Below, piece after piece: positions 1,695 through 56,944 of a DNA stretch of 64,000 bases. The DNA is from Pyrenula massariospora (Eukaryota > Ascomycota > Eurotiomycetes > Pyrenulales > Pyrenulaceae). A model generated the notes under the pieces. It made no database searches and was not told where the DNA came from. It saw nothing but the letters and a program-made list of their open reading frames with translations. Every line of letters starts with the position of its first letter. Positions within the stretch are counted from its first letter, which is position 1. The position numbers and the translations under genes were made by a program. The DNA is taken from assembly GCA_021030905.1 (NCBI GenBank), contig JAGFMI010000012.1, forward strand, positions 372,001-436,000, in the 5' to 3' direction.

Positions 1695-5057
<3,363 letters not shown>

Positions 5058-6499: not shown

Positions 6500-7924
6500 T
6501 GGGAGAGGGCGGGTTTGAACGTGGGAGGATGATGGTATGAAGGAGGAAGGAGGGAGCGCGCAACTGGCTGTGTTCTTGAAGAGACTGGGAATGGCATGCC
6601 ACACATAAGGAGGTGACATTCAAAAGGAACTGTAAAAGCAACAAGAAGAGGCGCCTGAACCTTGGTATGCACTGTTAGGATAGGAAACAGACTAGCTGTA
6701 GTGCCATACCTGCACATATTCTGACCATAGATGTACAGAGAAACCGCCATATAAGCATCCAGGGTGTTCCCCATTGATTGATCTTTTCGTAGACCCCCTC
6801 GGAATGATAGCGGCCGCCATTTTGGAAAACATTTGGTCTGTGAAGACTTTGCTCTATCGAGACCGAAAGAAGATGTGAAGGCTGGGTGATGGGACAGTTG
6901 CTCATATCAAAGTTTTCACTGTACGAGTAATCGGAACTACCCACCCGGAGACTCTCTTCTGAGACACGGCAAGGTACAGATAAACACGTGTCAATGAGCT
7001 TTCATTTACAATTCCGTGGCTCTTCATTCAATATAGGCAACAAAGCGTAATAGCCTAACACTGTGAAAGTATTAGGCAAGAGCGATATCCTCTCTAAAGT
7101 TCCGATATCAAGGGCTGTACACACAGAACCGCCTTCTTCCCGTCAGGTACTGAAAGGTGTACAACAAGGATAAGAGATTGAAACAGAGACCCAAGCCGTT
7201 CTTCAAACAGCTACTTCGGTGACATTCTTATTAACCCATCTGTGTTCTTGGTAAAGAAGTGTATACTTTACGACAAATTCCACTTCTCATTTACATTTGA
7301 TGGTAGCGAGCAATTGTAAGTGTACGCTAAACATTGGCGGCGCAGCAGTATCCAATACGATCCATCACCCACGTGACCGAAGTACCGAGCAGAGCGTGCC
7401 TGGGTGTGGTGCAGAATGTGAAGCTTGTTGTTCTAACTTGGACACATTGTCGGTGCGGCTTTGCTATGTAGCAATGTGCCATGACGCTCCGCACGGGACG
7501 GTGGCTCCTGCTCCACGACCACGGTGGGCGGGTACCTACCGACCGAGTTGAGGAAGCGACTGCGCGGACGGGCAGTATGCTGTAGGGAATAGAGGTTGTC
7601 AGAGTCCTGTTGGTCGGCGGACAACCCCCGGAGGAGGCTTGAATGGTCGGTATAAACTTGGTATTTTTAGAAAAAACTTGATGCAGTCGCCTGCGAGCGA
7701 GATTGACAAACCCATGTACGTCGCTGTTGCTCCTGCTTTACGAAATCGGTGATTGGGGAGGCGAAGGAATCATAGGGGTAGGCGGAGTAACCGTGTATCG
7801 TCCTCAGCGTCTGCGCAGGTTTTTGAGCGTTTTTGTCATACTGTACATTGTTGAACGGCTCGGCTGCTTATGACAAGGCGCACAAGAGGCCTTCCTGACC
7901 CTGCTGGATATCTTGGTACTGCTG

Positions 7925-11275: not shown

Positions 11276-11387
11276 TTCCCCCTTCTCGAAAAATTCCTTC
11301 TCCGCACCTCGCCAATTATCTTACACTGACCCTAAAATCTAGATTCTGAAGTCTACCACAGTCTTTTGCATACTATAATCAGCCATC

Positions 11388-33772: not shown

Positions 33773-35419
33773 TTAGGCGGGCGCAGACCCATTTCCAATT
33801 TCCTTCTTCGCATCCGCCCTCACTTCCTCCATCCCATCGTTCCGCGGCATGTAATGCCCCTTCGTCTTGACAATCCGCGCCTTAACGCTGTCATGGATAT
33901 CGGCGTCTTTTGGTATATCTCTTGACGCCCCCAAGTTTGGCGGAAATGCCAGGGATTTCCACGTGCCCTTGATAAGCTCGAGGCGGCGGAGAGGGAGGAT
34001 TTCTGCGATCTTCTGTTAGCTCACAGAGGGAGTAATTCAATATGATGTTCTTACCGAGCAGCCACCAGAACCCTAGCGCGAAAATATTCGAGCCCTTGCC
34101 AAGTTGCAAATTGTCGTGTTGTTCAGCGATCGTCGCCTTGTCGCGCTTCTCCTTGAAGTTTTGAGTGAACTCGTCGAGTAAGGAGCGGTTGAATTCGAGC
34201 TTGGCAGCCTCCTCGATGTTGGAATGATTCAATTCTTCGAGCTGCTCGAGCATCCAGTTAAGTGTGATATCGGAGAGTTGCACGGATTTGTCGTGCCAGC
34301 TGCCGGTGTCGTGTTTAGATTTGTGACCACCACCTATATTTCGGAAAGTTTCGTCAGGGAAGGGTTGACGATGAGAAAATGCTATCACGGCATACCTATA
34401 TCTGAATGATCTCCGGCGAAGAAGACCTCGCGGATATGAGTGATGGTTTCCTGGCTTGCTGAGCCATTCGTCGTGTGGTATGGGTTTTCAGGGTTGTCGT
34501 CTTGCTGGTCCGTAGTCCCTTTATTCTGGGGGCACAGCAATGCAGGCTTGAATTTGACACGCCTCTCATCGATCGAGCAGGCATGGCGGATGTAATGCGC
34601 GGTGGGGGCGCGGCTATCGTATTGAAATTGTTCGTCTACGTCGGACTCTGGCGAACCGGTCAAGAACGTGTAAAGAATGGATTGAATAAGCGGCACTTAC
34701 TAGGGCCGTGGTGTACCAACTTCACCCGCTGTTTGAATGGTATCGGAAACATTTCAACGCTGTTGACTGTGTCGAAAACACCGAGGAAATGTGGCACTGC
34801 ACCTTCACGGCAGAAGGTGGCTTTGAACATATCCATCTCACTACGGATTTGATCGTCGCTCTTTCCTTTGAATGGTCCTGATCGGTTCACACAGTCCTTG
34901 TACATTTTGTACGCAAAGGCGACCATCTCTTCGTTGCCTTTAGACAGAAGGCCAACCGCGCATATCATGCGGGCGACAAAGCGGGCTGTGAAGGCTCCTC
35001 TTGAGAACCCGAAAAGGTAAATGTAGTCCCCTTGTCCATAGTAGCGCATGGCGAATTGGTATGCGCCCATGACGTGGGCGTCAAAATCTGTGGCAAATCC
35101 CTCATCGAGAGTCTGTGCAATGTTCCGCACAGCTGGTCCGAGTAGAGGTAGATTAAGGGAAGTCCAGCTAGCATTGTAGGTCCCGATTCCGGCTAAGTAG
35201 TGGGTTAGCAAGCACGAATCAATTCTATGGCCCCTCGACTCTAGGCTGCATACGTTGATAGTAGTGATACTGATCTTTGGTGGTTCTGTCGAGCTTCTGG
35301 AATATTTTTACGATATTCGTGTTGCTAGAATTTGAGTCCGCATGAAACTCGTTTCCAGTACCGTCAAAGCAAAGTACTAGCTTCTTGCGCGGGCCGTCGT
35401 CGTCGGTTTGGGGTGCCAT
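33773..35419 (-). CDS. DUF2235 alpha/beta hydrolase (Tle1-like)
   Basis: Five exons: complement(33773..34002, 34055..34333, 34396..34647, 34701..35192, 35254..35419); 472 aa. All four introns are 52-62 nt. Splicing restores the family signatures [12 protein letters not shown] (about 14-25), [19 protein letters not shown] (across intron 1), the nucleophile elbow [19 protein letters not shown], and GDHSDIGGGH (across intron 3). The last exon gives [16 protein letters not shown] and ends [18 protein letters not shown]2235 shares the catalytic domain of bacterial type VI phospholipase effector Tle1, and many ascomycetes carry intracellular copies of unknown role. No signal peptide or membrane anchor is seen. 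Confidence 0.9.
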
Positions 35420-39088: not shown

Positions 39089-41537
39089 TCATAGGAAGAA
39101 TTCATCATCATGAGACGAGTCATTGCCAACAATGGGCAGTCCAAGAAGGTGACGTGCCTCTTGGAGTGATTGAGCTCCAGTCTGGGAGCTTGATACTATT
39201 TTAGATGACAGGTTCGAACAAACATGTTGATCATCCTGCGCTTGTTCAACGCCGGTGCCCGGATGACTTTGCTCATCAGCAAACTCGTTATAAGTAAAAG
39301 GTAGAGTTTCGCCGAGAGTGGTCAGCCATAGTTGATCCAGAGTATTAGGTGACGGAATAATAGATGCTGAGTTGGCGACTGGCGTCGACTTGGAGAGTAT
39401 AGTTGACGCAAGAGCACGTAGTCTCGGAAACATGGCAACAAATTTTGGGTGCTGACCTTGCGTACCGTACACCTTTTCGAGGTAGCTTGTGGCGTGCTTG
39501 ATCAGCTATTAGGCGGATTAATATGTTGTACGATAGGTTCTCAAGAGAATAACTTACCTCCAGGTCCGACTGGGCTGTCCAAGAGGCTGGTGTCCTCATG
39601 ATATGAATGACCAAGATATAAATAGCCAGTACGGGCTGTGTGGGAGAAATAAGCTGAGAACCTTGGCATTGAGACAAAACGTCGTTCAGGGATCGGATGA
39701 TCGCTCTAGCTGCAGTGGCACAAATTGCTTCACCTGCGAGTAATCTGTGTTTCCAATTCGATGATGGACAGCTCGCCTCGACTTTTATACGGTGTAATTT
39801 TGGCTCGATGAGCAGAGAAGTTCGATGGAGCATAGACAATCTTTCGAAGTTAGCAAATTTTCGTCCGCAAGACCGAGAGTGCATACGTGCTATAGTACTG
39901 AAAGGCCAAGACAGAGGCAAAGGGGAGCATTTCTGGAGGACAGTATGTGATATCTCTTCCAGGCCTGATCTAAACTGTCAGTCATGGTGGCGATGGAGGC
40001 CACACTCACTCACCTAATGATCTCTGGAACACTGTCAGTCCAATCTGTGAGCTGCGCATCAAAGTGACCTAGGAGTGGAATGATCTGTTCTAATGACTTC
40101 TTGGTTGCTCTTGGGCTGAAGATGTCTGCAGTGATGCTTCCCTGTATCTTGCTGAGCCCAACAAGTGCGCATAAATAGTCTGGCTCTTCTACGGCGAGTG
40201 GCTCTGATCGCGAAATTTCTGCTTCATCTATTATGGATGGGCGCCCTGTCTCGAATCCCATGTTTCTCTCCAAACAGTAAACAGCCCACCATATACGAGA
40301 CTGGTAGCCCGAATTGTGTTCTAGTGCAGGTTGACTGTCTCTTTGCAAGCCGATCGTCTGAGCAATTCGAACCGCTTGACCAACGAATTGTCCAGCTGCT
40401 CCATCCTTCAAGCAGCCCCTCAAAGCAACAGCAAGCGTCCCAAGAGCTTGTACTGATGTTAGATAAGGATGAGCAATGATATGAGCCAAACAGGAATATG
40501 CCGCTTTGAGGAGAAGGTCACTTGTCTCTTTAGCACATCCAGCAGCTTCTCTTGCACCGGCACTGGCGGCAGCATATAAGCATACTAGCTCTGGAACATC
40601 TTCTCGAGATATAGTAGAGAGATCTTTGCAAGTCTGGAACTTCAAGAGTATCATGGATAAGGTCGATGAGTCTAAGAAAGGATAGATCGGATTTATGGTG
40701 TCCAGGTAAGTTCTTATGTAAAGACCCAGATCATCTATTGCTCGAGGAGCTGGCAAGCTCATTACTAGAGGTAATTCTACCTCTTCTGCGAACCTCATGC
40801 CGTAACAGAAGCCTTCAGAGAGGCTATCGTTGATACCATAGGCTATGAGTCCAAGGTCCACCCATTGGGCGAAGACCTGGAGGCTGCTAGCCCCCAAGTA
40901 CTTCTGACGCAATAAAGTTTCGTCCACGTTCACGGCGGCTTGCATGCCATCAATGGGGGATAGGTGCCCGTCATGGCCAGCCTCTGAGGGATGTCCACGT
41001 TCAGCCTCCAATGGACCAGTCATTAATTCCCTTCCTGCGCATAAAATTGCACGCTCTGATTCCCTCGAGGCGGTGGACGGTCTTCTGATGCTAGTTCGGT
41101 TGATAGCCGGACTGCGATTACTTGACGGCTCGCCGTTTCGTATTCGATAGCGTACTGCTCCAAATCTTGGGCTGATGACTTCATTAGAGACCGCATCTGA
41201 ATTCACCGTCCGAGCAGGACTTGAATGGGTTCTGCTTGGAGATCGTGACATAGCCCTTCTTCTAGCCACCTCTGGTGCACCTGGTTTCCTTAAAATCTGT
41301 CGTGATGCATTGCTGGTTAGAGACTAAACAATTCCGGCAAGAAGGACTCCCTTCATCGCAGCGTTTTTTTTGTGAGCGACAGTAGTTGCAAGCATGGGAC
41401 AGCCGCTTGCGTTTTGCTCCTTGATTGTGTCGCGGCGCTTCCATAACATATGACCTATGGCAGGGGGCCTGTCCTGCCTTTTGTCGATTTTCATTGCCGG
41501 CTAGATTTATGTCCTCATACCTCCCATTCCCAGTCAC
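39089..41537 (-). CDS. Zn2Cys6 fungal transcription factor, possible one-base frameshift
   Basis: Exons: complement(39089..39505, 39558..39969, 40014..41537), about 783 aa if continuous. A Zn2Cys6 binuclear cluster (HACNYCRSQKKRCDEGSPSCRNC...C) follows a basic RKRLS. A fungal-specific TF middle domain is recognisable (YLDTINPIYPFLD, AVRIAQTIGLQRD, IWWAVYCLERNMGFETGRPS). The zinc cluster and the rest are in different frames: the family-like stretch LRKPGAPEVARRRA appears one base out after TTD, at the run ATTTTAA near 41291-41297. Either one base has been gained, or an unusual 49-nt intron (41232-41280, donor GTGCAC, acceptor AAGCAG) restores frame. Introns at 39506-39557 and 39970-40013 are ordinary. 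It is the probable regulator of the genes to its right. Confidence 0.85.
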
Positions 41538-42002
41538 CTTTCATGGGTGTTTATAACCGACGGGAAGTCATTATGAATGTGTTTGGATGCTAGTTTTTCA
41601 AAAGGCAAACAGGGGAGCCTAAGACTTCATTGACACTAATTACCGCTGCCGAAGTAGTGTTCTGCCGGCGTGTCGTCAGCTGCGGGGGAGCAGAGATGGG
41701 GATTCACTCATGGGTCTAACCGCCGGAATGAAGGCGGGCGGAATTCTAGGCATTGGCGACTTCAGGCGAGACATGCTTTCGACGTCTCAACTCTACCCTC
41801 GAACAGAGAATTGCAATTATAGAGCTGTTAGAATCACACAAGAGATACGTCTTAGTATCGTCATTAACTTGTGATCACTGATTTGGCCACGGACATCAAA
41901 AAGAACAGTGCTGGCGCAAACTATGTAGTCGTTCTACCATACTAGCCTGATATTCATTCCTGAGCACTTTATGTCTACCTAGCTGCAGCCGTAATTTCTC
42001 AC
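41538..42002. other. TF promoter region
   Basis: 465 nt upstream of the transcription factor and downstream of the MFS gene. It contains CGG-rich half sites (CCGACGGG near 41558; GGCGGGCGG near 41733) that could be autoregulatory, but none is the full shared element. Confidence 0.4.
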
Positions 42003-43743
42003 TTATTCTCTTCCGAGTGCTTTTGCTCGCCACTAGATTTTTGTCAGCCGTAGTCTTCGATCACTAGGAAGTATACGTACCCAAGGATTGATATAATAAG
42101 TCGGGATTCCCAACAGGAATACCGCTCCATGTACTCCTGCCAGAATTCCTAGCGATTTTTGATAGCCGAACTTTCCAAGCATGGGGATAAGACCATAAGA
42201 CACACCAAAAGCAATTATATTCTTTGCCCCAACAACCATGACAAGGGCTGGTCCAGGATTTTGTGGCCAACTCTCCGCGGCAAATGCTGTAGTAGTGATG
42301 AGAATGGTGACAAAGGTGAATTGGTACAATGTCCATCCAATGTATGGGCCCCACCAGGTGGCATTGCCAGACGAGGTGAAGCCGTAGAGCAAAAGAGCGG
42401 CAAATCCAACGACTCCGGCGAATGGAAGCATGAGCAAGCGGTGTTCTGGTTTATGCACACCACCATTGCGTCTTGCAAGCCGCACTGCTAACTTGTCCGC
42501 CGGCAGTCCCGCATATGCCATCCCGAGAAAGGCACCGATCACGCCGCCTATGTTGATCAAGCCAACATTTGAGGCCGGCCAATGATAGTTCTCCTCTAGT
42601 ACGGTGTTGTAAGTCAAAGAGACGGCAACAGCACAGCCGAGAACCGTAGCTGCTAACAGAAGCGCGTACATGATGCTTGGAGAAGTAAGAGACTGAACCA
42701 TGTTGAGATAGCATCTCACAACGATATGTAGTGGGTTCTCTGTCACTCCAGAGAAAGGATTGAGCATTTGGAAGTATGTCTTCTTCGTTGTGGCCGGGAA
42801 TTGATGGATCATCGCTTCCTGCTCAGCAGCAATATAAGCGGCCGCTTCTGCACCCTGTAGCTCCCTGGTCACCCCAAATTCGTCTGTTACAATGACTCGA
42901 CCTTGAAGAGCTGTCGCTGGACGTTTGAAACGGGTTTCAAATGCGCCAAAAATCGCCATGATGAGTCCAAAGCCGATTGCAAAGACATAAACCCAGTAGA
43001 ACCAGCGCCAAGACAGGCTGACAGTTTCGTAAGAACTCGCAAGATTGAGAGCGCTCGATAACCCTGTCTGGGTTGCCCAATAGAACCCAAACATAATACT
43101 TCGCTCGTGTACGAAAGTGATCTCAGTGATCATGAGAGGAAGTAAGCTCTCGGTAGCGCCAGTTGTCAGACCTTGGACGATTCGGGCGGCCAAGTGACTT
43201 TCGTAAGATTTGTTGACAGCAGCACCAATTGTCGCAAGGAGCAAGCCGACCACCGCAGTGATAAATACTGGACGCCGGCCAAAAATCAGAGCCAGAGGTA
43301 AGATCACTAGATTTCCTTGTATGAGTCAGTACAAAACCGGCTCGAGGAATGTCGAGAAAAGTACCTATTCCAATGAAAAGAGATGGAAAGGTTGACAGCC
43401 AAACAATCTCATTGGTAGTGTGGCCTTGCGGAGCATAAATCTTGAAGAAGGTCACAAGAATCGCTCCCAGGCCACCAGAGAGAGCCAAAGACATGATTGA
43501 GAACCAGCAACAGTTGACCGTGATGCTCAACTTCGCCCATTTCGAGTAGTTTAACGGATCGTTCGGATCTGCACTTGGGACAGGTAGCTTTTGGAGGCAC
43601 CCTTCCCGGGTGATGAGCACTGCATCGCCAGCTGCGAGGTCCACTTCCACTATGCCTGGTTTATTGTGTTGAGAAGCCTCCTCCACGTGGAATTGAGAGC
43701 CTTGTTCTTTGTCCATGACAAGCCTTGCGGAGGTTTTCGTCAC
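42003..43743 (-). CDS. MFS transporter (DHA1-like exporter)
   Basis: Three exons: complement(42003..42032, 42081..43306, 43365..43743); 544 aa. The 58-nt intron joins FPSLFIGIG to VILPLALIFGRRPVF, restoring the MFS loop 2-3 motif. A strong GTACGT donor and CTAG acceptor remove 48 nt near the end and give the C-terminus NPWWRAKALGRE; reading through would instead give a different 16-residue tail. The N-terminus with DPNDPLNYSKWAKL before TM1 is typical of fungal multidrug or metabolite MFS proteins. About 12 TM segments. It lies between the TF and the PhyH gene and carries the shared CGG element 205 nt upstream, so it probably exports or imports the cluster's compound. Confidence 0.88.
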
Positions 43744-44540
43744 AATATGAGCCAGAGGAGAGTATTCGAGAGCATCTTGCTGAGCACCCAGGATCCGGGC
43801 CTCGGTCGGCGTAGTATGAACTTCTTGAGTCTACAAGAAGCGACCATGTCCAACCCATAATGCCGTAAAGTATCTGGTGCATGTTACCCCGGAAAGTTTG
43901 GTCCAAAATGGTCTGGGATGGCTCCAGGCAAGAGCTAGAGAATCGCTTCGGGTCGGCTGGGGTGTGACCCCACTCCATGCATTGACGGCTGACAGCCTCC
44001 GCCTCGGATTTCTTCCATTGGAGTATCACCGAGCTCATAAGGCTTTTTTCATCGTAGCGGCCTATCATTCCACGTTCGCAGTTCACCCCTCTGTTCAACT
44101 TTACCACAGATTACTGTCGATCAACCTGGATTGGTTTGATATGCCGCACATCAGTCCTCCATTTGCATGCTATGAACTGAAGCGCATGATGATGGACTGG
44201 GGTGCTCTCGCATTGGCTTGGGATCTCCCAATAATGTAAAGAGTGGCCATTCGATTTTGTTACAGACTCTATCCATGCGAAGACACCTGATTCGAGATCC
44301 ATCGTACAAGCTCGAGCGGGCTATTAGAGATCTCGCTAGCTCTGTGTCTAAATGATTCGGATTCCCAAAGCTGAATGCCATTTCTGGGAATTTCTGGCTC
44401 CTGGTCGCCCTGTCGATTGTCGATTACGGAGACCAATTCTTCACTGTTACAAACCATGAATATTCCCCTTCAAGCAGCTTTGATTGCGATATTTGTCGTC
44501 ACCGAAGTAGCCTTTGGGAAGACTGGATCAGTCAATCACG
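43744..44540. other. Promoter of the MFS gene
   Basis: 0.8 kb upstream of the MFS gene and downstream of PhyH. It holds the shared element at 43948-43962. Nothing else supported. Confidence 0.5.
43948..43962. promoter_or_regulatory. Shared CGG-N2-CGG element, MFS promoter
   Basis: TCGGGTCGGCTGGGG, 205 nt upstream of the MFS ATG. Its first 14 bases equal those at 46095-46108. CGG-N2-CGG is a plausible Zn2Cys6 site, and its right end CTGGGG is also a CreA-type site. Confidence 0.5.
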
Positions 44541-45838
44541 TCACCTAGTGGTCTCTTTGAGGACTATGGATGGCAAATGGTGGGCTTTGTCATATCGTAC
44601 CTTGATGTATGGAATGCCAGTCAGCTTGAATGCTCTCTTGCTCAACACCGGATCATTAAATGGTTTGTCACGACTGTGAGGATCAGGCTGGCCGTCGCGT
44701 TTTGCTTCGTTTGAACCGGTATGTCTGGCATTTGGCCAGTGTGTTGTACCTACACGGCCTGCCGGAGGGAGAATTCGTCAACGACTTGAACGGAATTGAA
44801 AAAAAAACCGGAGATGAACTTAAAAGCTATCTCGCATCGTGATTGTGGAAGCACTTACGGTCGAATGCGTCCTTCTTCCTCAAGAGATCTTCCTGGCTTG
44901 CATCGACGGCTGGCATGTAACAAGTATAGATGCAGAATCTGGGCTGTTCTGTTGTCGAGGAGAGATTATAATGGGCACTCCGCGAGTCCCAGAGGAGTAA
45001 ATCTCCTGGTTCGGCACAGACTTTGATCCACTCACATCCGTGCTCCTTGAGCCACTGGAGACCGGTGTCTTTGAATCCATACCATTCCGACGTCCAGGCT
45101 GGAATTCGTTCTTCGTCCCTGAAGGCTTGGTGATATTCTTCAGAGAGGATATGCGAGCCTTTGCAAACGATAAGGCCTCCGTCGTTTGGCCCGTTCGGAA
45201 GGAGATTTACCAATCTGTTAATTGCAGGTTAGGAATGCAGTGATGACAAAAGTCTTGGAGGAATCTGAGAATCTCCTAGACGCTGCTTACCCCTGCAAAC
45301 ATCGAAATCCTGGCTTTGCAGGATCCTGATCTTGATGCGGCCATGGCTTATTGGGAGGCAGATCTTTTCTGTTGGCGAAGCCAAAGTTGACTGCATCGAA
45401 TGAAACGATGAGGTCCTCGTCCTGATATACCTTTGCGAAGGCATCGACGACTCCTGGCTCCGCGCGAACTTTCCAGACAAAATTCTCGTGGCTGATGCCG
45501 TAGTTCAAGCACATGCCCTTCTCATTGATGACAGGGAGGTTGTCCTTATGAACCGTGGAGAGGTCGTCGCGTCTGAAGCCAAGATTGAATTTCTCCAGCC
45601 ATGCAAACATCTCAGAGGCATATTGGTCGGCTCGCAAACGAGGAACGGCACCTTTAACGACAGCGTAACCATCGCGGACAAGGTCTTGGTACCACGAATC
45701 TTTGATGCTTTGAAGCGGAAGCAGTTGGCGGGGAGCCTGTTGCTCTGTCTGAGCTTCAGTGACAGTAGTGGTGATAGACATCTTGCTTTCAGAAATGCCT
45801 ATGATTGAAAATATTTCCCAAGCTTGTCGATTTTTCAA
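44541..45838 (-). CDS. PhyH-family Fe(II)/2-oxoglutarate dioxygenase
   Basis: Three exons: complement(44541..44749, 44859..45214, 45291..45838); 370 aa from the first ATG. The Met at 45781 (MSITTTVTEAQ) is an equally good start and gives 351 aa. Introns are 76 and 109 nt; the third exon supplies TTHWPNARH and the closing AFKLTGIPYI. Metal ligands are visible: His168-x-Asp170 (PWPHQDQDP), a distal His in RSAHYNLS, and a following Arg (QPRFCIY) for 2-oxoglutarate. NLLPNGPNDGGLIVCKGSH is the family core. It should hydroxylate a small molecule or acyl chain in the cytosol; the substrate is unknown. It shares a bidirectional promoter with the FAD monooxygenase. Confidence 0.9.
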
Positions 45839-46024
45839 GAAGCGAGTCTAGAACTGAGAGTTTGAGGTGCTGATGTACCTTAAATACTGTCCGAATTGGC
45901 ACGGCTTGATTCCAAAATTCGCTAAGTTTCTGAAGCTGATACGAAGCATAAATCCCAACGTTCTCCAGACACGGTTCGGGAAAAGTCCATCTTCCTCTGC
46001 ACAGCTCAGGTTGTGATATTGTGA

Positions 46025-46034
46025 TCGGGTCGGC
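46025..46034. promoter_or_regulatory. CGG-N2-CGG element copy 2
   Basis: TCGGGTCGGC, identical to the first ten bases of the elements at 43948 and 46095. Confidence 0.45.
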
Positions 46035-46094
46035 ACATGAGATTCAACTCGTGTCTGAGTCTGATAAGAATTTTGTCAACGCTCAGAGAGGCCA

Positions 46095-46108
46095 TCGGGT
46101 CGGCTGGG
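46095..46108. promoter_or_regulatory. CGG-N2-CGG element copy 3
   Basis: TCGGGTCGGCTGGG, a 14/14 match to the MFS promoter element and 70 nt from copy 2 in the same orientation. Confidence 0.5.
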
Positions 46109-46440
46109 CGAGAATGAGTGGCCCTTTTTCTACCGGGAAGTGTGCCAGCCGAACCGCTAAAAACGTCAGCTCCGCATTAGTCTTTCTAGTGTCATTTAGT
46201 CATAAGCCAGTCCCATTGATTGACATCTTAGACGCTGGAAAATAGGTCTCTGAACCCATTTCGAAGAACGGCTCAGTTGAGATCTCACCATCCCGGAAAA
46301 AATCAGTTCGCTACACCGGCGAACTGCACTGATAGGTCGATCCCTTGTTTCTGATCATCAGACATTTCCAACTCTGGAGGGCCCTTAGTTCTTGTGTTCA
46401 AGAAGTTTCAATGGCATTCCCAAGGTCTCCTATCATCAGC

Positions 46441-47919
46441 ATGGCAGAAAGGAAAACCCATATCATCGTTGTTGGGGGAGGTATATGTGGTCTTGCGACT
46501 GTGCGTTGGATCAGATCCTTTCAAGACTTGACTTGAGCTTAAATGACTTAGGCAATTGCCTTAAGAGGTGCTGGAAGGCATATCACGGTTGTGGAACAAT
46601 CGCGAATGAATAGAGAAGTCGGCGCGTTGATCTCACTTCAGCCGAATGCTACCAAAATCGCTAACAAACTGGGACTGGAAGAATTCTTGAGCAACAAAAG
46701 ACCAATGACAGACACAGCCTTTAGGATCTATAATAATAACGGCAACGTCATCAACACAATCAGCTTGGATAATGACTCGTCATCGGCAGGTCGAATCTTA
46801 TACCACAGAGTTGACTTGCATGAAAGTTTAAAGGAGGCTGCAACTATATGCACTCGCTTGTCACCGTCTACAAACGGGGTCTCGTCCATGCCTCCGCAGG
46901 ACGGCTCGTCAGTGCCGGTGACCATCCGTATTGCATCACGTGTTTCTACTTGCAATCCTGAAGCCGGGACTGTGACGTTAGAAGATCGGACCACGCTCAC
47001 TGCAGATATCATCATTGGAGCAGACGGTGTGCACTCTGCACTTCGAAAATATGTTCTCAACGACGGCGAGGACCAGTCAATGTACGATGCTCAACCGACC
47101 GGCGTGTCCGCATATAGGCTTTTGCTACCCACAGCCAAGATAACCAAAGTTCCCAGCATTACGTCTCATCTAGACCCAGCAGCGCCGATTACCCACATGG
47201 TCCTCGGACCGAGCCAGCGAGTGGTGATGGGGCCAGCACGTCAAGGAGACGTCTTCGGTATTACAGCTCTCGTGCCAGATGAGGACATGCACGAGCCCTC
47301 GAGGCAGTCTTGGACATCAAAAGGGTCCATGAGTAAATTAATTGAAACGTTTAGAGAATTTCCTCAATGGCTCAAAGACATGTTCTCGCTCGCGGGTACT
47401 GGTCAAGGCGCTGACGAGTTTGAAAGTGAACTTGCCCTTTGGCAACTCCGAGATATCAATCCTCTACCCCGTTGGTCTCGTGGACGCCTGATATTAGCAG
47501 GAGACGCCGCCCACGCCATGCTTCCAACACAAGGTCAGGGGGCGTCTCAGTCATTCGAAGATGCTGAAGCTCTAGGAGTTTTCCTTGGCGATACACTGGA
47601 TACATCTTCTAAGCCAACGATACAAGTGATTGAAAAAGCTTCCCAACGCTACTTCAATTGCAGGTACGAGCGCGCCAGCCTGATACAAGCATACAGTCGA
47701 CAGCAAAGTTTGAAGCCGGTGGCAGCGGCTGGCAAGGAAGTAAAAGCCACCGCGATTCTGAATCCCGCTGAATTCATGAGATTTAACACCGATTACGATG
47801 GAGCGCTCGATTGGGAGATAAGACAAAGGAACCGAAACTCAGCGGCCAATGCTGAGGCTTCTGCACTACGAATCCAACCACACACGGAGACACCCAGAGC
47901 TGTCAATGTCGAGATCTAA
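46441..47919 (+). CDS. FAD-dependent monooxygenase (salicylate hydroxylase type)
   Basis: Two exons: 46441..46500, 46552..47919; 475 aa. The 51-nt intron (GTGCGT...TTAG) splits the Rossmann motif, and splicing gives VVGGGICGLATAIALRGAG (residues 10-28), the GxGxxG FAD site. Further class A flavoprotein motifs are the DG motif IIGADGVHSALRKYV and the GD motif RLILAGDAAHAMLPTQGQG. An upstream ATG at 46411 would add ten residues before MAERK. The enzyme should hydroxylate an aromatic or similar compound with NAD(P)H and O2; the substrate is unknown. Divergent from PhyH with a shared promoter, and followed by the GH78 gene. Confidence 0.92.
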
Positions 47920-48505
47920 CGACCAATGGTAAAAGTTCTGGACAGCTAAATCGGGAATTAACAAGGGCTTTGGGGCTTTCACCCTTTCTTAAACATGTAG
48001 CTATACAAGGCAGCTCTGTCCCATTCGCTCTTCGATCGCAAGCTGTTGCAGCCCTATCTATCCAGTCCTGTAGTCATGATTCCATGACGACCTCAATGAT
48101 CACCCTTGATCTACTCAAGTAACCTTCAACTACCACGTATTCGTATCCATCAATTACGAGAAATTTCAAAGTATATGTGTTAATTGCTGGACTAGATACT
48201 GTGCCTCGGTAGAATGTTCTACCGAAGGTGAGGGTGACATATATGTTGGAGCGGTAAACAGGCCGGCAATATATACAACTAGCGGACGCAGGAACAAGAG
48301 GACCCTGGCAGGGCCAGTAACGATCGTGGAGAATCCAAGAATTATCCCTACATGTCTTAAATGTTCCACGCCGATCCCCTAATTCAGACCACTAACCCGA
48401 GCCTGAAGATAATCCCCAGCCGAGCCGTTCTGCCAGGTAAAAGTAGAAGCAGATCGTGGTGAAACAAAGAGTGTTAGACGATGCGTGTAGTACGTACGTA
48501 CAGAA
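47920..48505. other. Promoter region of the GH78 gene
   Basis: 0.6 kb. It contains a reverse-oriented CGG element at 48413-48427. A 67-codon hydrophobic minus frame (48166-48369) is not called. Confidence 0.5.
48413..48427. promoter_or_regulatory. CGG-N2-CGG element copy 4 (reverse)
   Basis: The reverse complement reads CGGCTCGGCTGGGGA, which differs from the MFS element (CGGGTCGGCTGGGG) at one of 14 positions. It lies 79 nt before the GH78 ATG and overlaps a CreA-type CCCCAG. Confidence 0.45.
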
Positions 48506-51500
48506 ATGCTTTTGTTCAGGGTGTGCAGCGCCGTCCTTTCATTGCACGTGCTAGGTTGCGCCGTGGCCGCACATTGGCCGCGAGATTCGGCTGCCGACGT
48601 TCCCTGGCCAGCGATTCCCTCTCAAGAACCCTATCCGACACCAACAAGACCTGTCGAAATCTACCCTACTGCTGTAGCACGAGCGAATCCATGCGAGGCT
48701 GTCAACAGCACAAATTTGACGTTCAAGTCGACGGGGGATACCTACACGCGTAAGTCGTGCTTGAAAACTTCTTCCTTTCCTCCCTAGAAGACATACATTG
48801 CTGAGGTCGATAACAATATCAGTTGATTATGGGCGCGACTTCGCCGGCAAACCAATCTTTGAAATCGCCGCTGTCGAAGGGTATGCGCAAATAGAAGTGA
48901 AGTACAGCGAAACATACGAGCAAGTATATCCCTTGGAGCTCCATTGGAATTCTTGCTAATCCGTGCAAGAGGACTGCTTAAGCCACAGGCCGACGGACCT
49001 TATGCATTTGCCAATGCATTAGGAGGGACTTTCCGAGTTGAGGCGTACAATATCACCAGCATTGGCAATATCACAGGCTATTTCATTCAAGGATCCCAAA
49101 GGTGGCAATCCATTAAGCTGATTCGAGGTAATGGGTTGATCATATCAACCGCAGGATTTGTGTCCACTGTCGACGAGGCTCCAGTGAGTCTCCTTGTCGC
49201 GTCTGTGGTATCGTAATCGTTGTCTGACGCTTTCCGGCCAGCTATCCTCGATAGCGGGTTATTTCGCTTCGAGCAACTCAACATACACGGACATATGGGC
49301 CCTTGGACCCCGCACGCAGCAGCTCGTCTGCTACTATCCTGGTTCCCAAACCTCAACATGGGACATCACAGCTAGAGGAGCATATATACGGGGCCAAAAG
49401 CCAGCAACGTCTCCAAGAGTAGTCAATCTATCGAACTATACTCTTACCTTTGAGACAATGATCGACTTTGGCGGAGTTGGATGGCGCTTGGATACTGAAA
49501 TTGATGCCATACAAGCCACTGGCCCGCTTTGTAAGGTTGAAGCTGCGGGCAAATCACCGAGCTCCAGCTGACAGGTATGACGCCAGTCGTTCTCACGAGC
49601 GAGTATCCAGACGGATCATTTGCCAATATCGATCAAGAGCTAGTTCCTCCAAATACTCTAGTTCTGGGAAGAGGCTGGTCTCTCCAGAACCAGACGAGCT
49701 TGCCAGGTTTCGTACTAGCTAAGTTCCCTGTTAATTTGGTACGACATGTTGACCGAGAAAGGCGAATGAAAGCTAAAACTCCCGTGGTGATAGAATGTCA
49801 CCGAAAAGACATGGCATACCGTCAGTACAAATTCGCATGGCGATGGGATCTATGCAGTATCTTTGGACGGACAAAAGATTTCTCAGTTCAACATTAGCTC
49901 CTACGGTATCGGTGATCCCTCCCCTTACATTCCTGGCGGTGTCTATAAGAGCTTTGCGCTTGGACCATGGCAAGATCAAGCGGCCTATTATCGAAATATC
50001 AATGTGACCCTGGCTACTGGAGACAACGTTTACAGTAACCCTTTGGATTCTGAAGATGTCCTTATTGAGTATGGCATTCAAACCCTCGACACTTATGTCT
50101 GTTCCGACTCAGGTAAACGTGATCGATACTCGTGGCTAGGAGATCGTCTCGTCTCGTCCCGGTCAGTCATGGTGAGTACAGCTGAAATGCATTTTGTTTG
50201 GGGACCTGCAGAAGAGGCTTTTTCAAGACAAATTGCTTCCGGCCAGGTTCCAATCAACACCTTATTCAGCCCACTGGAGCCGGAAGATGCCGCCATTAGA
50301 ACCACAAATTTAGACCCTCTACTGGTTGACTATATGTTCGATTTCATGCAGACCATCTATAACTACTGGTTGCGGTATGTGGTCTTACCCATCTGAATAA
50401 AAGCGCATGTACACTAACTTTCTGTCTCTCAAAGAACCTCAAATGATACCTTCATTCAAAGCCATTGGTCTGAAATGGTCGCGGTGACAGCTTATGCAAT
50501 TAGTCGATCCTTGGATCAGGAAGCTCAGCTATACGGTGCCATAAGCGGTTCCGGGGCAATTCCTCTGACGGGCGAAAAAGGGCAGGCCCTTGGACCTGCC
50601 AACACGATTTCTCTGATACTAGGTCTTGAAAGAATGGCCGACATGGCAGCTTACCTTAATTACACCACAACAGCGTCCGACTATCGAGCACAAGCTACTC
50701 GGTCTCGAGAAGCTATCGATCGCCTATTGTGGAATGAAACTGGAGGATTTTATGCGGCCACGATTGGAGAATCCGGTTACGACATGATGGATATTGCTCA
50801 GGTTTTGCTGGGTGAGGTTGGATCCAGTGAGCGTAGAGCGACGTTTCTGGAGAAGTTGAAGGCGCTCAAGGTCCCTGCTGGCTATATCAATGGAACTCGT
50901 TATTTCGATACCCCCGGCATTGTTAACCCTTATTACGCAAGCTTCCTTCTTGAAGGCCTCGCTGAATCTAATGAAACAGCGTTGGCACAAGACTTGCTGG
51001 ATTCTACGTGGGCCCCTATGGTGCGCAAGGATAACAATTATACTGGTGGTTACTGGGAATATATTGTAAGTGTCACAAGGAATTCCTCCGCATGCCATTA
51101 TGCGCGACAACTTGCCGCGTGCTTGTTTCCTACTGACCATGCCTTTCCGATAGAGTCCTGATGGCAGCTATCCCGGCTTGGACCTTTTCACCGGGAATTC
51201 ACACTTTTGGGGCTCATATCCAACCGTCTTCCTGACTGAGTACGTCCTCGGTGTTCATCCCACCTCACCAGGCTACAGGAGGTTCTTGTTCGCGCCGCTG
51301 CCCGGTTTCAAGTCCGACTGGGTTCATGGTCGTGTGCCCACGCCCAAGGGTATCATCTTTGCCGCTTGGGGTTACCAGGAGGACGGGAGGATGGTGATGG
51401 AGATCACTGCACCCGAAGGCCTGCAGGGAACAGTCAAAGTGCCGTTCGATGGAACCTTCACCGTTCACAATGAGAGTGGTGTGAGCGGTGACGTAATGGT

Positions 51501-51540
51501 CTACGGAGGCAGCGGAAGCGTCAGGATTGTTCAAGATTAG
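48506..51540 (+). CDS. Secreted GH78-type alpha-L-rhamnosidase
   Basis: Eight exons: 48506..48749, 48823..48901, 48970..49183, 49242..49530, 49575..49738, 49794..50374, 50435..51065, 51154..51540; 862 aa in this model. The signal peptide is MLLFRVCSAVLSLHVLGCAVAA. Family landmarks are LDYGRDFAGKPIFEI, GSQRWQSIKLI, STWDITARGAYIRGQ, VVLTSEYPDGSFANI, GKRDRYSWLGD (the conserved acidic catalytic-region motif of the (alpha/alpha)6 barrel), GPANTISLILGLERM and FWGSYPTVFLTEYVLG, then a C-terminal beta domain. It should remove terminal rhamnose from plant glycosides or pectin side chains outside the cell. Intron 2 is uncertain: the natural-looking GTATAT donor at 48924 breaks the frame by one base, whereas GTACAG at 48902 keeps it but drops YSETYEQ. 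Confidence 0.85.
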
Positions 51541-51911: not shown

Positions 51912-53522
51912 TCAAAAATCCAATTGACCGGAAGATCCCTCCTCTCTCCGCGCAAAAACCCGTTGATATTCGTCCTCGAAGAAAAACTTCTCCTCCCCAA
52001 ACGCCGGAACAAGATCCGTCATCCACCTCGCCTCGGGATCAAACCTGGCTAAGAACACCCTCCCCACCCACGACGGCACCCTCGCCTGCAGGAACTTCAA
52101 CAAGAATACCTCCTCCCCCTTGATCGTCTCAATCCCCATGATCCCCACTTTCCCCGGCGAAGCCGACATCGACGGCCCGCGCACCGTCCTCGCCGTCCCA
52201 GCCAGCCCTGCATACGCGGCGGAGAACACACGGTACGCCTCCACCAACGGGACGGAGAAATAATGGCTCGCGCCCGTGTCGCGCTCGACGAACATGTAGT
52301 ACGGTATGAGCCCGAGCGCGACTTGCGTATTCCACATGTCGCGGAATGTGTGTGCGGAGTTGTTGACGTGGCGGATGAGCGGGTTTTGGCACCGGATGTT
52401 GGCGCCCGTCATGCGGATGAGTCGGATGGCTTCGTGGACGGCGGGCGTTTGGAGCTCGTGGGGGTGGGAGAAGTGGGCTTGGATGGTGAGGTGGCGGTTG
52501 GAGTGGACGAGGGAGGAGAAGAGGGTTAGGAGATCTCTGGAGTCGGGATCGGAGATGAAGCGGTGGGGCCAGAAGGAGAGGGATTTGGTTCCGAGACGGA
52601 TGGTTTGGATGTGGTCGAGGGATGGATCTTGGGTCGTGAAGGGGGATAAGTAATGTGAGAGGACTCGGGTAGGCATTACTAAGGGGTCGCCGCCGGTAAA
52701 GAGGACGTCTTTGACCTGCTGATTAGCTCGTAGATATGAAACGAGAGCCTGGAGATCGTTTGACCGAAATTGAAGATCTGAGCCGACAGATGTGAATTGC
52801 GCCCAGCGGAAGCAATAGGTACAAAAGCTGTGGCAGAATTGCCCCTATAGGTCTGTTAGCCTCCATTGTCGGAGCATGGACACGGCGTATCGACGAACTT
52901 CGGTGGGAAAGAACAACACAGTCTCCCGGTACTTGTGTTGAAGTCCTTCAAGTCTTCTCCCAGAGAGTCGAGGAACATTTTCTTCTTTTTGCCCTGATGG
53001 GTGAGCGTTCAGCTCGCGACGTATGTTTTCCGCTGACCTTCTCAGATCGACCCGTGAAGATTGTCCTGACTCCAAGTCCGTCTTAATCTTACGAAGCTGC
53101 TCCTTCTGGAGCATTTCAGGCTGAGGAAAGACGAGTTGAAATATGGGATCGTTAGGAACATTAGACCTTTCGAAATCGTATCAATAGTAAGCGACCAATC
53201 CTGAAGTATCAGAAAAGCCCATGACATAGAGCAGAGCTTACCAGTCAATAAGACTATCCACGACATAATTGTTCACACGCATGGGAAACACCTCTGCGGC
53301 GGCCCTGTAGGTCGATGCATCCAAGGAGGGAGCATGTTGCTGTAACAAGTGTGGGATATGGCTTTTAGTATAGAGCTGAAAATGCAATTTCCTATTGTAG
53401 TCTACCTGATTGGCGAGAGCGACAGCAGTCGAGAAGCTGTTTCGGGACATTCTAAATCTTCGGTGAATCGTTACGAGCCGTAGGAATCTCAGTCCTGGTC
53501 TGTGTAGCATGTTCAATCGCAA
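51912..53522 (-). CDS. KamA-like radical SAM aminomutase
   Basis: Three exons: complement(51912..52844, 52899..53166, 53242..53522); 493 aa from the first ATG found, though the true start could lie further upstream. Splicing restores LIDWSNVPNDPIFQLVFPQPEML and ETVLFFPTE|GQFCHSFCTYCFRWAQF. The radical-SAM cysteines are CHSFCTYC at 187-194, followed by VLFTGGDPLVM. The donor of the second intron is GTTCGT. PSMSASPGKVGI resembles the PLP-lysine loop of lysine 2,3-aminomutase, and VERDTGASHYFSVP the substrate loop. The Asp that holds the lysine epsilon-amine in the clostridial enzyme (in VDAPGGGGK) appears to be Ser here, so the substrate may not be lysine. The C→G skew switch is near 52300. Likely PLP-, SAM- and 4Fe-4S-dependent. 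Confidence 0.88.
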
Positions 53523-55814: not shown

Positions 55815-56944
55815 ATGGATTTTGCACAAGATATTTCGCTTCCAACCATAGATCTGGAGGATTTACTGTCTGGTCCTTTTCAAACAAGCGAGATCGCAAG
55901 ACTGGTCGCTGCAGCAACCTCTGTGGGATTTTTCTACTTGAAATTTGGTGCAACGAAGTGTAAGCACAATGATAATAATGTTGCAGCTACTCTCGCCCAT
56001 ACACTAAATGAAGCCAACGAAATCTTCATATTAATGAGAAGTCTATTTGATCTCCCGGTCGAGGAGAAGAAAGAGTTCGGCGTCTCAAAAAATGGTGGTT
56101 ACTTTGGGTAAGCTCTCACAACAACAATGTCGCTTTTGCTTAGAAGATCAGCTACAAAGGTTTAGGCATGTCTTTTATCGACGAGCATGGCACTCCAGAT
56201 ACCAACGAGTTCTACAACATCTCCAAAGACGACATGCTAGATCATAATGGCAGCAGATTCCAACAGCCACAGATTCTAGAGCACAGTCGACCACTCCTCC
56301 AGTCGTTTATCGTTCATTGTCACCAGATTGCAACAATATTACTTCAAGCACTGTCCGCAACGCTAAAGCTGGAGCCTATCAGTATTGAAGACCATGACAG
56401 CAGCGACGTTTTACCAAATCTTCACAGACTAAGCGCACCTTCAGAGGACCAAATATCCATGATCAAGTATCCAATCTTAGAATCCATGCCCTCCTCCCAA
56501 CCTTTAGCATCACACACCGATTATGGCTCCATCACCATTCTTTTCACCTCCAGTCCAGGACTTCAAGTTCTCAGAAAGAGCATCGCCGAATCTGAAAGCC
56601 AATGGTACGACATTCCACCGAAAGAAGGCCACGCAATCGTAAATTGCGGTGACGCGCTCTCGCTCTTCACTGGGAACATCATCCGCTCCAATGTCCACCG
56701 GGTAACAAGCCACGCGTCGCGAGGCTCGCAGACACCTAGATACTCCCTCGGATATTTCGCTCGCCCGGAAAACGATCAGATCCTTCGACCTCTTCGCAGC
56801 CCGCTCATTGAGATTCCCGAAGGGGAGAGAAAAGAGGGAGTCCGCACACAAGAGTGGATCTTGAGACGCTCTTACGGGAGGCTGCTTGATCGGTATGAGG
56901 GCGAAAAGTCTTGGGCGGCTACTGCCGGAACTGAAAAGCTTTAG
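55815..56944 (+). CDS. Isopenicillin-N-synthase-like Fe(II)/2OG oxygenase
   Basis: Two exons: 55815..56107, 56152..56944; 361 aa. The 44-nt intron (GTAAGC...ATCAG) joins NGGYFG to YKGLGMSFIDEHGTPDTNEFYN, a typical stretch of this family. Iron ligands are His219-x-Asp221 (ASHTDYGSI) and His280 (RSNVHRVTSH); the 2-oxoglutarate site is Arg294-x-Ser (PRYSLGYFARPE). The N-terminal DIOX_N part begins LPTIDLEDLL. Soluble and probably cytosolic. Such enzymes hydroxylate, desaturate or cyclise small molecules in many fungal pathways. It lies beyond the KamA-like gene and lacks the shared promoter motif, so membership of the cluster is open. Confidence 0.92.

Follow-up and report, generated by a model that had tools for sequence, protein, structure and literature searches.

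A Candidate Glycoside-Processing Gene Cluster with a Shared CGG-N2-CGG Promoter Element in the Fungus Pyrenula massariospora

Gene Content of the Locus

The locus is found in a 64 kb stretch of DNA from Pyrenula massariospora (assembly GCA_021030905.1, contig JAGFMI010000012.1, positions 372,001 to 436,000; genome size, 37.8 Mb), which is referred to here as the window and to which positions refer unless a contig is named. Five spliced gene models were set by hand, and all five read through:

39089-41444, minus strand: Zn2Cys6 transcription factor (TF) gene, five exons modelled, of which the exon 1/2 junction (first intron) and the 3′ exons are uncertain
42033-43716, minus strand: MFS transporter gene, two exons, 544 aa (PF07690, 8.2e-22)
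44827-45781, minus strand: PhyH-type Fe(II)/2-oxoglutarate dioxygenase gene, two exons, 292 aa (PF05721, 1.3e-10)
46411-47919, plus strand: class A flavoprotein monooxygenase (FMO) gene, salicylate-hydroxylase-like, two exons (PF01494, 6.4e-21)
48506-51540, plus strand: GH78-like six-hairpin glycosidase gene, eight exons, 859 aa (PF17390, 9.2e-12; PF17389, 9.1e-06)

The FMO gene has an intron at 46501-46551 and encodes a product of 485 aa, or of 475 aa with the second in-frame ATG as the start. The TF is composed of a CX2CX6CX6CX2CX6C zinc cluster, encoded in exon 1 (PF00172, 6.8e-08), and a Fungal_trans domain (PF04082, 2.5e-14), both above their cut-offs. The first-pass annotation of this DNA had a Zn2Cys6 gene adjoining a cluster at 41262..51540, and the gene model and the two domains agree with it. 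The annotated gene set also stands; the left edge of the interval does not, since it cuts the TF gene modelled at 39089-41444.

A Promoter Element Shared by Four Genes

The 14-mer TCGGGTCGGCTGGG is present exactly at 43948-43961 (+) and 46095-46108 (+), that is, in both the MFS and the divergent PhyH/FMO promoters as first annotated, and the repeat of its 10-base core, TCGGGTCGGC, is likewise found at 46025. The best 12-base pattern, CGGNTCGGCTGG, is the 14-mer with one base relaxed and the ends trimmed, and was chosen after the sites were known. Four exact copies of this pattern occur in the window, within 4.5 kb and all between modelled genes; they fall in the MFS, divergent PhyH/FMO, and GH78 promoters, which together serve four genes. 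The four copies, together with a core and a partial element, are as follows:

43949-43960, plus strand: element CGGGTCGGCTGG, MFS promoter, 233 bp before the modelled MFS ATG
46096-46107, plus strand: element CGGGTCGGCTGG, divergent PhyH/FMO promoter
46145-46156, minus strand: element CGGTTCGGCTGG, divergent PhyH/FMO promoter, facing the 46096 copy with 37 bp between
48416-48427, minus strand: element CGGCTCGGCTGG, GH78 promoter, 79 bp before the modelled GH78 ATG
46026-46034, plus strand: core element CGGGTCGGC, PhyH/FMO promoter
45972-45979, plus strand: partial element CGGTTCGG, PhyH/FMO promoter

In the divergent promoter, the two 12-base elements lie 315 and 364 bp from the modelled ATG of PhyH and 304 and 255 bp from that of FMO. 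The copy at 46145-46156 had been overlooked previously. The reverse copy described for the GH78 promoter is present, at 48415-48428 (-) rather than at 48413 exactly; it differs from the 14-mer by one base across the final 13 positions and by two across all 14, and the 79 nt to the GH78 start is correct when measured from the end of the 12-base core to the modelled ATG. Counted by intergenic region, CGGNTCGG occurs once upstream of MFS (1110 bp), four times between PhyH and FMO (629 bp), once upstream of GH78 (586 bp), and not at all upstream of the TF gene (588 bp).

Simple counting had earlier put the chance of the 14-mer match at order 10^-3. This value is optimistic for the 14-mer alone: in dinucleotide-preserving shuffles of the four intergenic regions (n = 300), an exact shared word of 14 or more bases arose in 4/300, and the argument from the 14-mer alone is therefore only moderate. 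A one-wildcard 12-mer family over three of the four intergenic regions was seen in 0/300, and four copies of CGGNTCGGCTGG were seen in 0/100 shuffles of the whole window (mean, 0.02). Neither the 14-mer with three mismatches (6 matches; shuffle mean, 4.72; 6 reached in 35/100 shuffles) nor plain CGG-N2-CGG, CGGNNCGG (28 matches; shuffle mean, 22.26; reached in 14/100 shuffles), is enriched in the window.

Genome-Wide Distribution of the Element

The 14-mer has no third exact match anywhere in the 37.8 Mb genome, both copies being those of this cluster. The pattern CGGNTCGGCTGG has 29 matches genome-wide compared with 22 for a reversed control pattern, and the element is therefore not enriched across the genome but clumped at the cluster; no other pair on the same contig is closer than 40 kb, the spacing of the next closest pair. 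Clumps as tight as four copies in 4.5 kb are expected about 2e-7 times per genome, a figure to be read with the post hoc choice of the pattern in mind. The looser core CGGNTCGGC has 889 matches (control, 1139), of which five fall in 4.5 kb, with an expectation of about 0.004. Both the 12-mer and this 9-mer were picked after the sites were seen, and the genome counts may be lower bounds. An inverted CGGNTCGGCTGG pair, with a spacing of 20-50 allowed, occurs once in the genome, in the divergent PhyH/FMO promoter.

Outside the cluster, 18/25 genomic CGGNTCGGCTGG sites fall within open frames of at least 110 aa and 7/25 do not; of the cluster's own four sites, the one at 43949 is likewise placed within such a frame by this crude test. 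Next to six of the seven outside-frame sites are ten open reading frames, which match PPR, PNPOx, GH5 cellulase, zinc dehydrogenase, collagen-like, and WD40 families or, in four cases, have no match; the seventh site has no open reading frame of 110 aa or more beside it. A scattered regulon was rejected on these grounds, with most other sites in open frames and the neighbors of six of the remaining seven unrelated or without a match.

With a weight matrix, six sites in the window reach at least 13 bits, and the five in the cluster score 15.0-20.3 bits. The highest score in 25 kb of sequence flanking the window and in 10 kb surrounding the genome's other recognized GH78 gene is 12.7 bits. At 8 bits, other loci totalling 75,175 bases give 42 sites; with so many such sites everywhere, only high scores were used. 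The sole near-match in the window outside the cluster is CGGCTCGGCTGC at 7856 (+), with 14.8 bits.

It is highly improbable that the promoters share these words by chance and that the genes are independent. The shared words of 14 or more in shuffles, the ordinary frequency of CGGNNCGG as such, and the post hoc definition of the element would fit such a reading, which is opposed by the absence of a four-site, three-region family from all 300 shuffles and by the genome clump expectation, with either the 12-mer or the looser core. The common control of MFS, PhyH, FMO, and GH78 proposed in the first-pass annotation thus stands on one rare shared element in a local clump, with the qualification that the pattern is post hoc, and putative joint control of these four genes via this element is well supported by their promoter sequences.

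The Zn2Cys6 Factor and Known Regulatory Systems

Sequence matches of the TF include LAC9, GAL4, and PPR1. In the alignment with GAL4, Lys is kept at K18 and Gln is found at K17. According to PMC4245848, K17 and K18 of GAL4 are base contacts, RhaR has Arg at K17, and the regulator gene often adjoins the enzyme genes in Zn2Cys6 systems. The adjacent Zn2Cys6 protein is the likely regulator of the element-bearing genes. That the element is real but bound by some other regulator is improbable. The TF's own 588 bp promoter has no copy of the element and twelve TF-like matches, all weaker, are found elsewhere in the genome, as such a reading would suggest; the sites, however, clump at the cluster alone, as expected of a cluster-specific factor, and the open reading frames beside six of the seven other outside-frame sites belong to unrelated families or to none. 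With a rare promoter element common to the transporter, the two oxygenases, and the probably secreted glycosidase, and with a matching type of regulator adjoining them, these four proteins very likely work as one unit.

The AmyR, InuR, and RhaR systems have the same type of Zn2Cys6 regulator and CGG-based sites in their target promoters. The site in the cluster repeats CGG directly with a 2 bp spacer and is extended by CTGG, whereas those of AmyR, CGGN8(C/A)GG, and InuR, CGGN8CGG, are of the CGGN8 type (PMC5468973), and the enzyme set differs. The RhaR regulon of Aspergillus nidulans likewise has a Zn2Cys6 regulator linked to alpha-L-rhamnosidase genes. The RhaR site is given as CGG-X11-CCG, and the zinc cluster coding region is split by an intron in the RhaR gene (PMC4245848), whereas one exon encodes it in the cluster TF.

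The co-occurrence of a GH78 gene and a Zn2Cys6 regulator could also be taken to indicate an L-rhamnose utilization system of the RhaR/LRA type, which is very unlikely here. The RhaR-type site CGG-N11-CCG has 11 matches in the window and none in the four intergenic regions, on which basis a RhaR-type rhamnose regulon was rejected. In addition, the MFS protein has no sugar-porter match, and no LRA-type rhamnose catabolic family was found among the 30 longer open reading frames of the window and the five gene models that were scanned.

The literature was searched by title or abstract start among the matches listed, with subscription journals mostly uncovered, and no described cluster of rhamnosidase, Zn2Cys6 factor, monooxygenase, PhyH, and MFS was seen; among the matches listed, by title or abstract start, flavonoid catabolic clusters were not of such make-up either. 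The sole match for rhamnosidase, phytanoyl-CoA dioxygenase, and monooxygenase together concerns an insect's microbiota. PMC5372324 was rejected as a described cluster, its available text giving the components in separate tables and not as a cluster. The site spellings CGGNNCGG, CGG-N2-CGG, CGGN2CGG, and CGGNTCGG had no match in the same mostly non-subscription literature.

The GH78-like Glycosidase

The C-terminal domain of the glycosidase (PF17390) scores 45.1 bits against a cut-off of 22.1, and the catalytic domain (PF17389) scores 25.6 bits, barely over its cut-off of 24.5. Its solved relatives are the bacterial rhamnosidase B (PDB 2okx, 5e-12), N12-Rha and AoRhaA (both about 2e-11), and a putative bacterial rhamnosidase. 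N12-Rha of A. niger and AoRhaA of A. oryzae are solved fungal enzymes, as named in PMC11901676. Similar to N12-Rha (8iwd/8iwf) and AoRhaA (8hmm), the cluster protein has a six-hairpin domain with a KRDR stretch; in the alignment with A. niger N12-Rha (8iwd), this stretch is kept, as are a Glu and a His downstream. The cluster protein differs in being distant from both enzymes and in exceeding the solved chains by about 220 residues. The six-hairpin GH78 assignment of the predicted protein holds at the family level, though it is distant. As judged by eye, the protein has a signal peptide, and it has 18 N-glycosylation sequons; it is probably secreted.

A Pfam search of the genome finds at least two GH78 genes, the cluster gene and one on contig C11, whose product is closely related to the Aspergillus enzymes (2.8e-117). 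The two proteins are 25% identical over 449 positions. Because of this low identity and a match barely over the cut-off, the substrate specificity of the cluster GH78 could differ, and a divergent GH78 beside an ordinary Aspergillus-type GH78 in the same genome could have a new specificity. Scans of prokaryote genomes with the GH78 and PhyH proteins found no close relatives.

The Oxygenases and the Transporter

The nearest solved protein to the FMO is decarboxylative vanillate 1-hydroxylase (PDB 8x38, 7.7e-38), and in NCBIfam, salicylate monooxygenase (TIGR03219) leads with 4e-44, below its cut-off. The likeness to vanillate 1-hydroxylase and salicylate hydroxylase extends over most of the protein length, and GxGxxG and GD stretches are seen by eye. 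The FMO is distant from the class A flavoprotein monooxygenases, falling below the NCBIfam cut-off in the best 25 of 90 matches. Its matches include TropB and AfoD, which are biosynthetic enzymes. In the PhyH protein, HxD and a distal His are seen by eye, and its match to ectoine hydroxylase is weak (0.025). The MFS protein is of the general MFS_1 type; efflux families match weakly, far below their cut-offs, no sugar-porter family matches, and a search against the PDB at E 0.01 returned nothing informative.

No paralogue of PhyH was found in the genome, and the closest FMO paralogue shares 33% identity. The existence of a second cluster copy was rejected, with PhyH having no other match in the genome and the closest FMO paralogue at that identity.

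Genomic Surroundings and Secondary Metabolism

Several other genes were identified in the window. Tail to tail with the GH78 gene, at 51912-53180 (-), lies a gene for a radical SAM protein of the KamA family that resembles lysine 2,3-aminomutase at scores under the NCBIfam cut-offs, with no 12-base element near it. A different 2OG-Fe(II) oxygenase (PF03171) is encoded at 56144-56941 (+), 4.6 kb past GH78 and also without the 12-base element. Farther to the left are found a two-domain peroxidase of about 800 aa at 2637-5054 (+), catalase-peroxidase-like by its make-up (PF00141, 1.7e-66, two stretches), a sugar transporter at 11379, 27 kb left of the TF gene, and a Tle1-like phospholipase catalytic domain protein at 34663-35307 (-) (PF09994, 5.8e-43).

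The genome is rich in polyketide synthases (PKSs), with 115 exon-wise ketoacyl synthase matches. Neither a ketoacyl synthase nor a condensation domain was found in the window, and no condensation domain on the whole contig; the closest ketoacyl synthase begins at contig position 477951, about 54 kb beyond the end of GH78. A biosynthetic cluster built on a PKS/NRPS core was rejected on this account. On contig C4 (588403-599654), a PKS locus contains an FMO paralogue together with a Zn2Cys6 factor that weakly resembles the cluster TF. This TF-FMO pair was rejected as a copy of the cluster: of TF, MFS, PhyH, and GH78, all tried there, TF alone matched, and the site is that of a PKS.

The main rival to external rhamnoside processing is a secondary-metabolism tailoring cluster without a core enzyme, in which FMO, PhyH, and MFS would alter a metabolite produced elsewhere and export it, and the glycosidase would trim a glycosylated form. 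Such a role is considered unlikely, less so than the other alternatives. It would be in keeping with the abundance of ketoacyl synthases in the genome, with the weakly similar TF beside an FMO paralogue and a PKS on C4, and with the TropB and AfoD matches of the FMO. However, the search for core enzymes, which covered ketoacyl synthases and condensation domains, found neither in the window, the nearest ketoacyl synthase on the contig being about 54 kb away, and a probably secreted glycosidase suits external substrates better.

Proposed Function of the Cluster

The reading that is considered probable, with some reserve, is a five-gene, locally regulated fungal metabolic cluster that handles an external, probably plant-derived glycoside via a Zn2Cys6 activator. 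This activator, probably the product of the gene at 39089-41444, would recognize the asymmetric direct repeat CGG-N2-CGG with CTGG and would switch on MFS, PhyH, FMO, and GH78 together. Most likely, a secreted GH78-type glycosidase would cleave a terminal rhamnose, or a sugar like it, off an external phenolic glycoside, and the MFS protein may transport either the aglycone or a product through the membrane. The compound may then be modified by the FMO, of the salicylate-hydroxylase type, and by the PhyH oxygenase, for breakdown or detoxification; this order of steps is itself conjectural. The term "rhamnoside-processing" in the first-pass annotation is in agreement with the family-level GH78 match and is weakened by the distance of that match and by an MFS protein that is not of the sugar-porter type. 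External rhamnoside processing is a plausible best guess for the function.

More speculatively, the locus could be an undescribed fungal unit for the catabolism or detoxification of a rhamnosylated plant phenolic. It would comprise a secreted GH78 of divergent sequence, an FMO that hydroxylates or decarboxylates, and a PhyH dioxygenase, under a Zn2Cys6 sensor of its own that recognizes a new type of site, CGG-N2-CGG-CTGG, present as a facing pair in the divergent promoter; this fuller version is offered tentatively. If the proposed reading is right, an orphan regulator, its DNA site, and four target genes would have been linked from sequence alone, and the cluster would provide a compact and testable entry into the sensing and processing of a glycosylated compound by a fungus.
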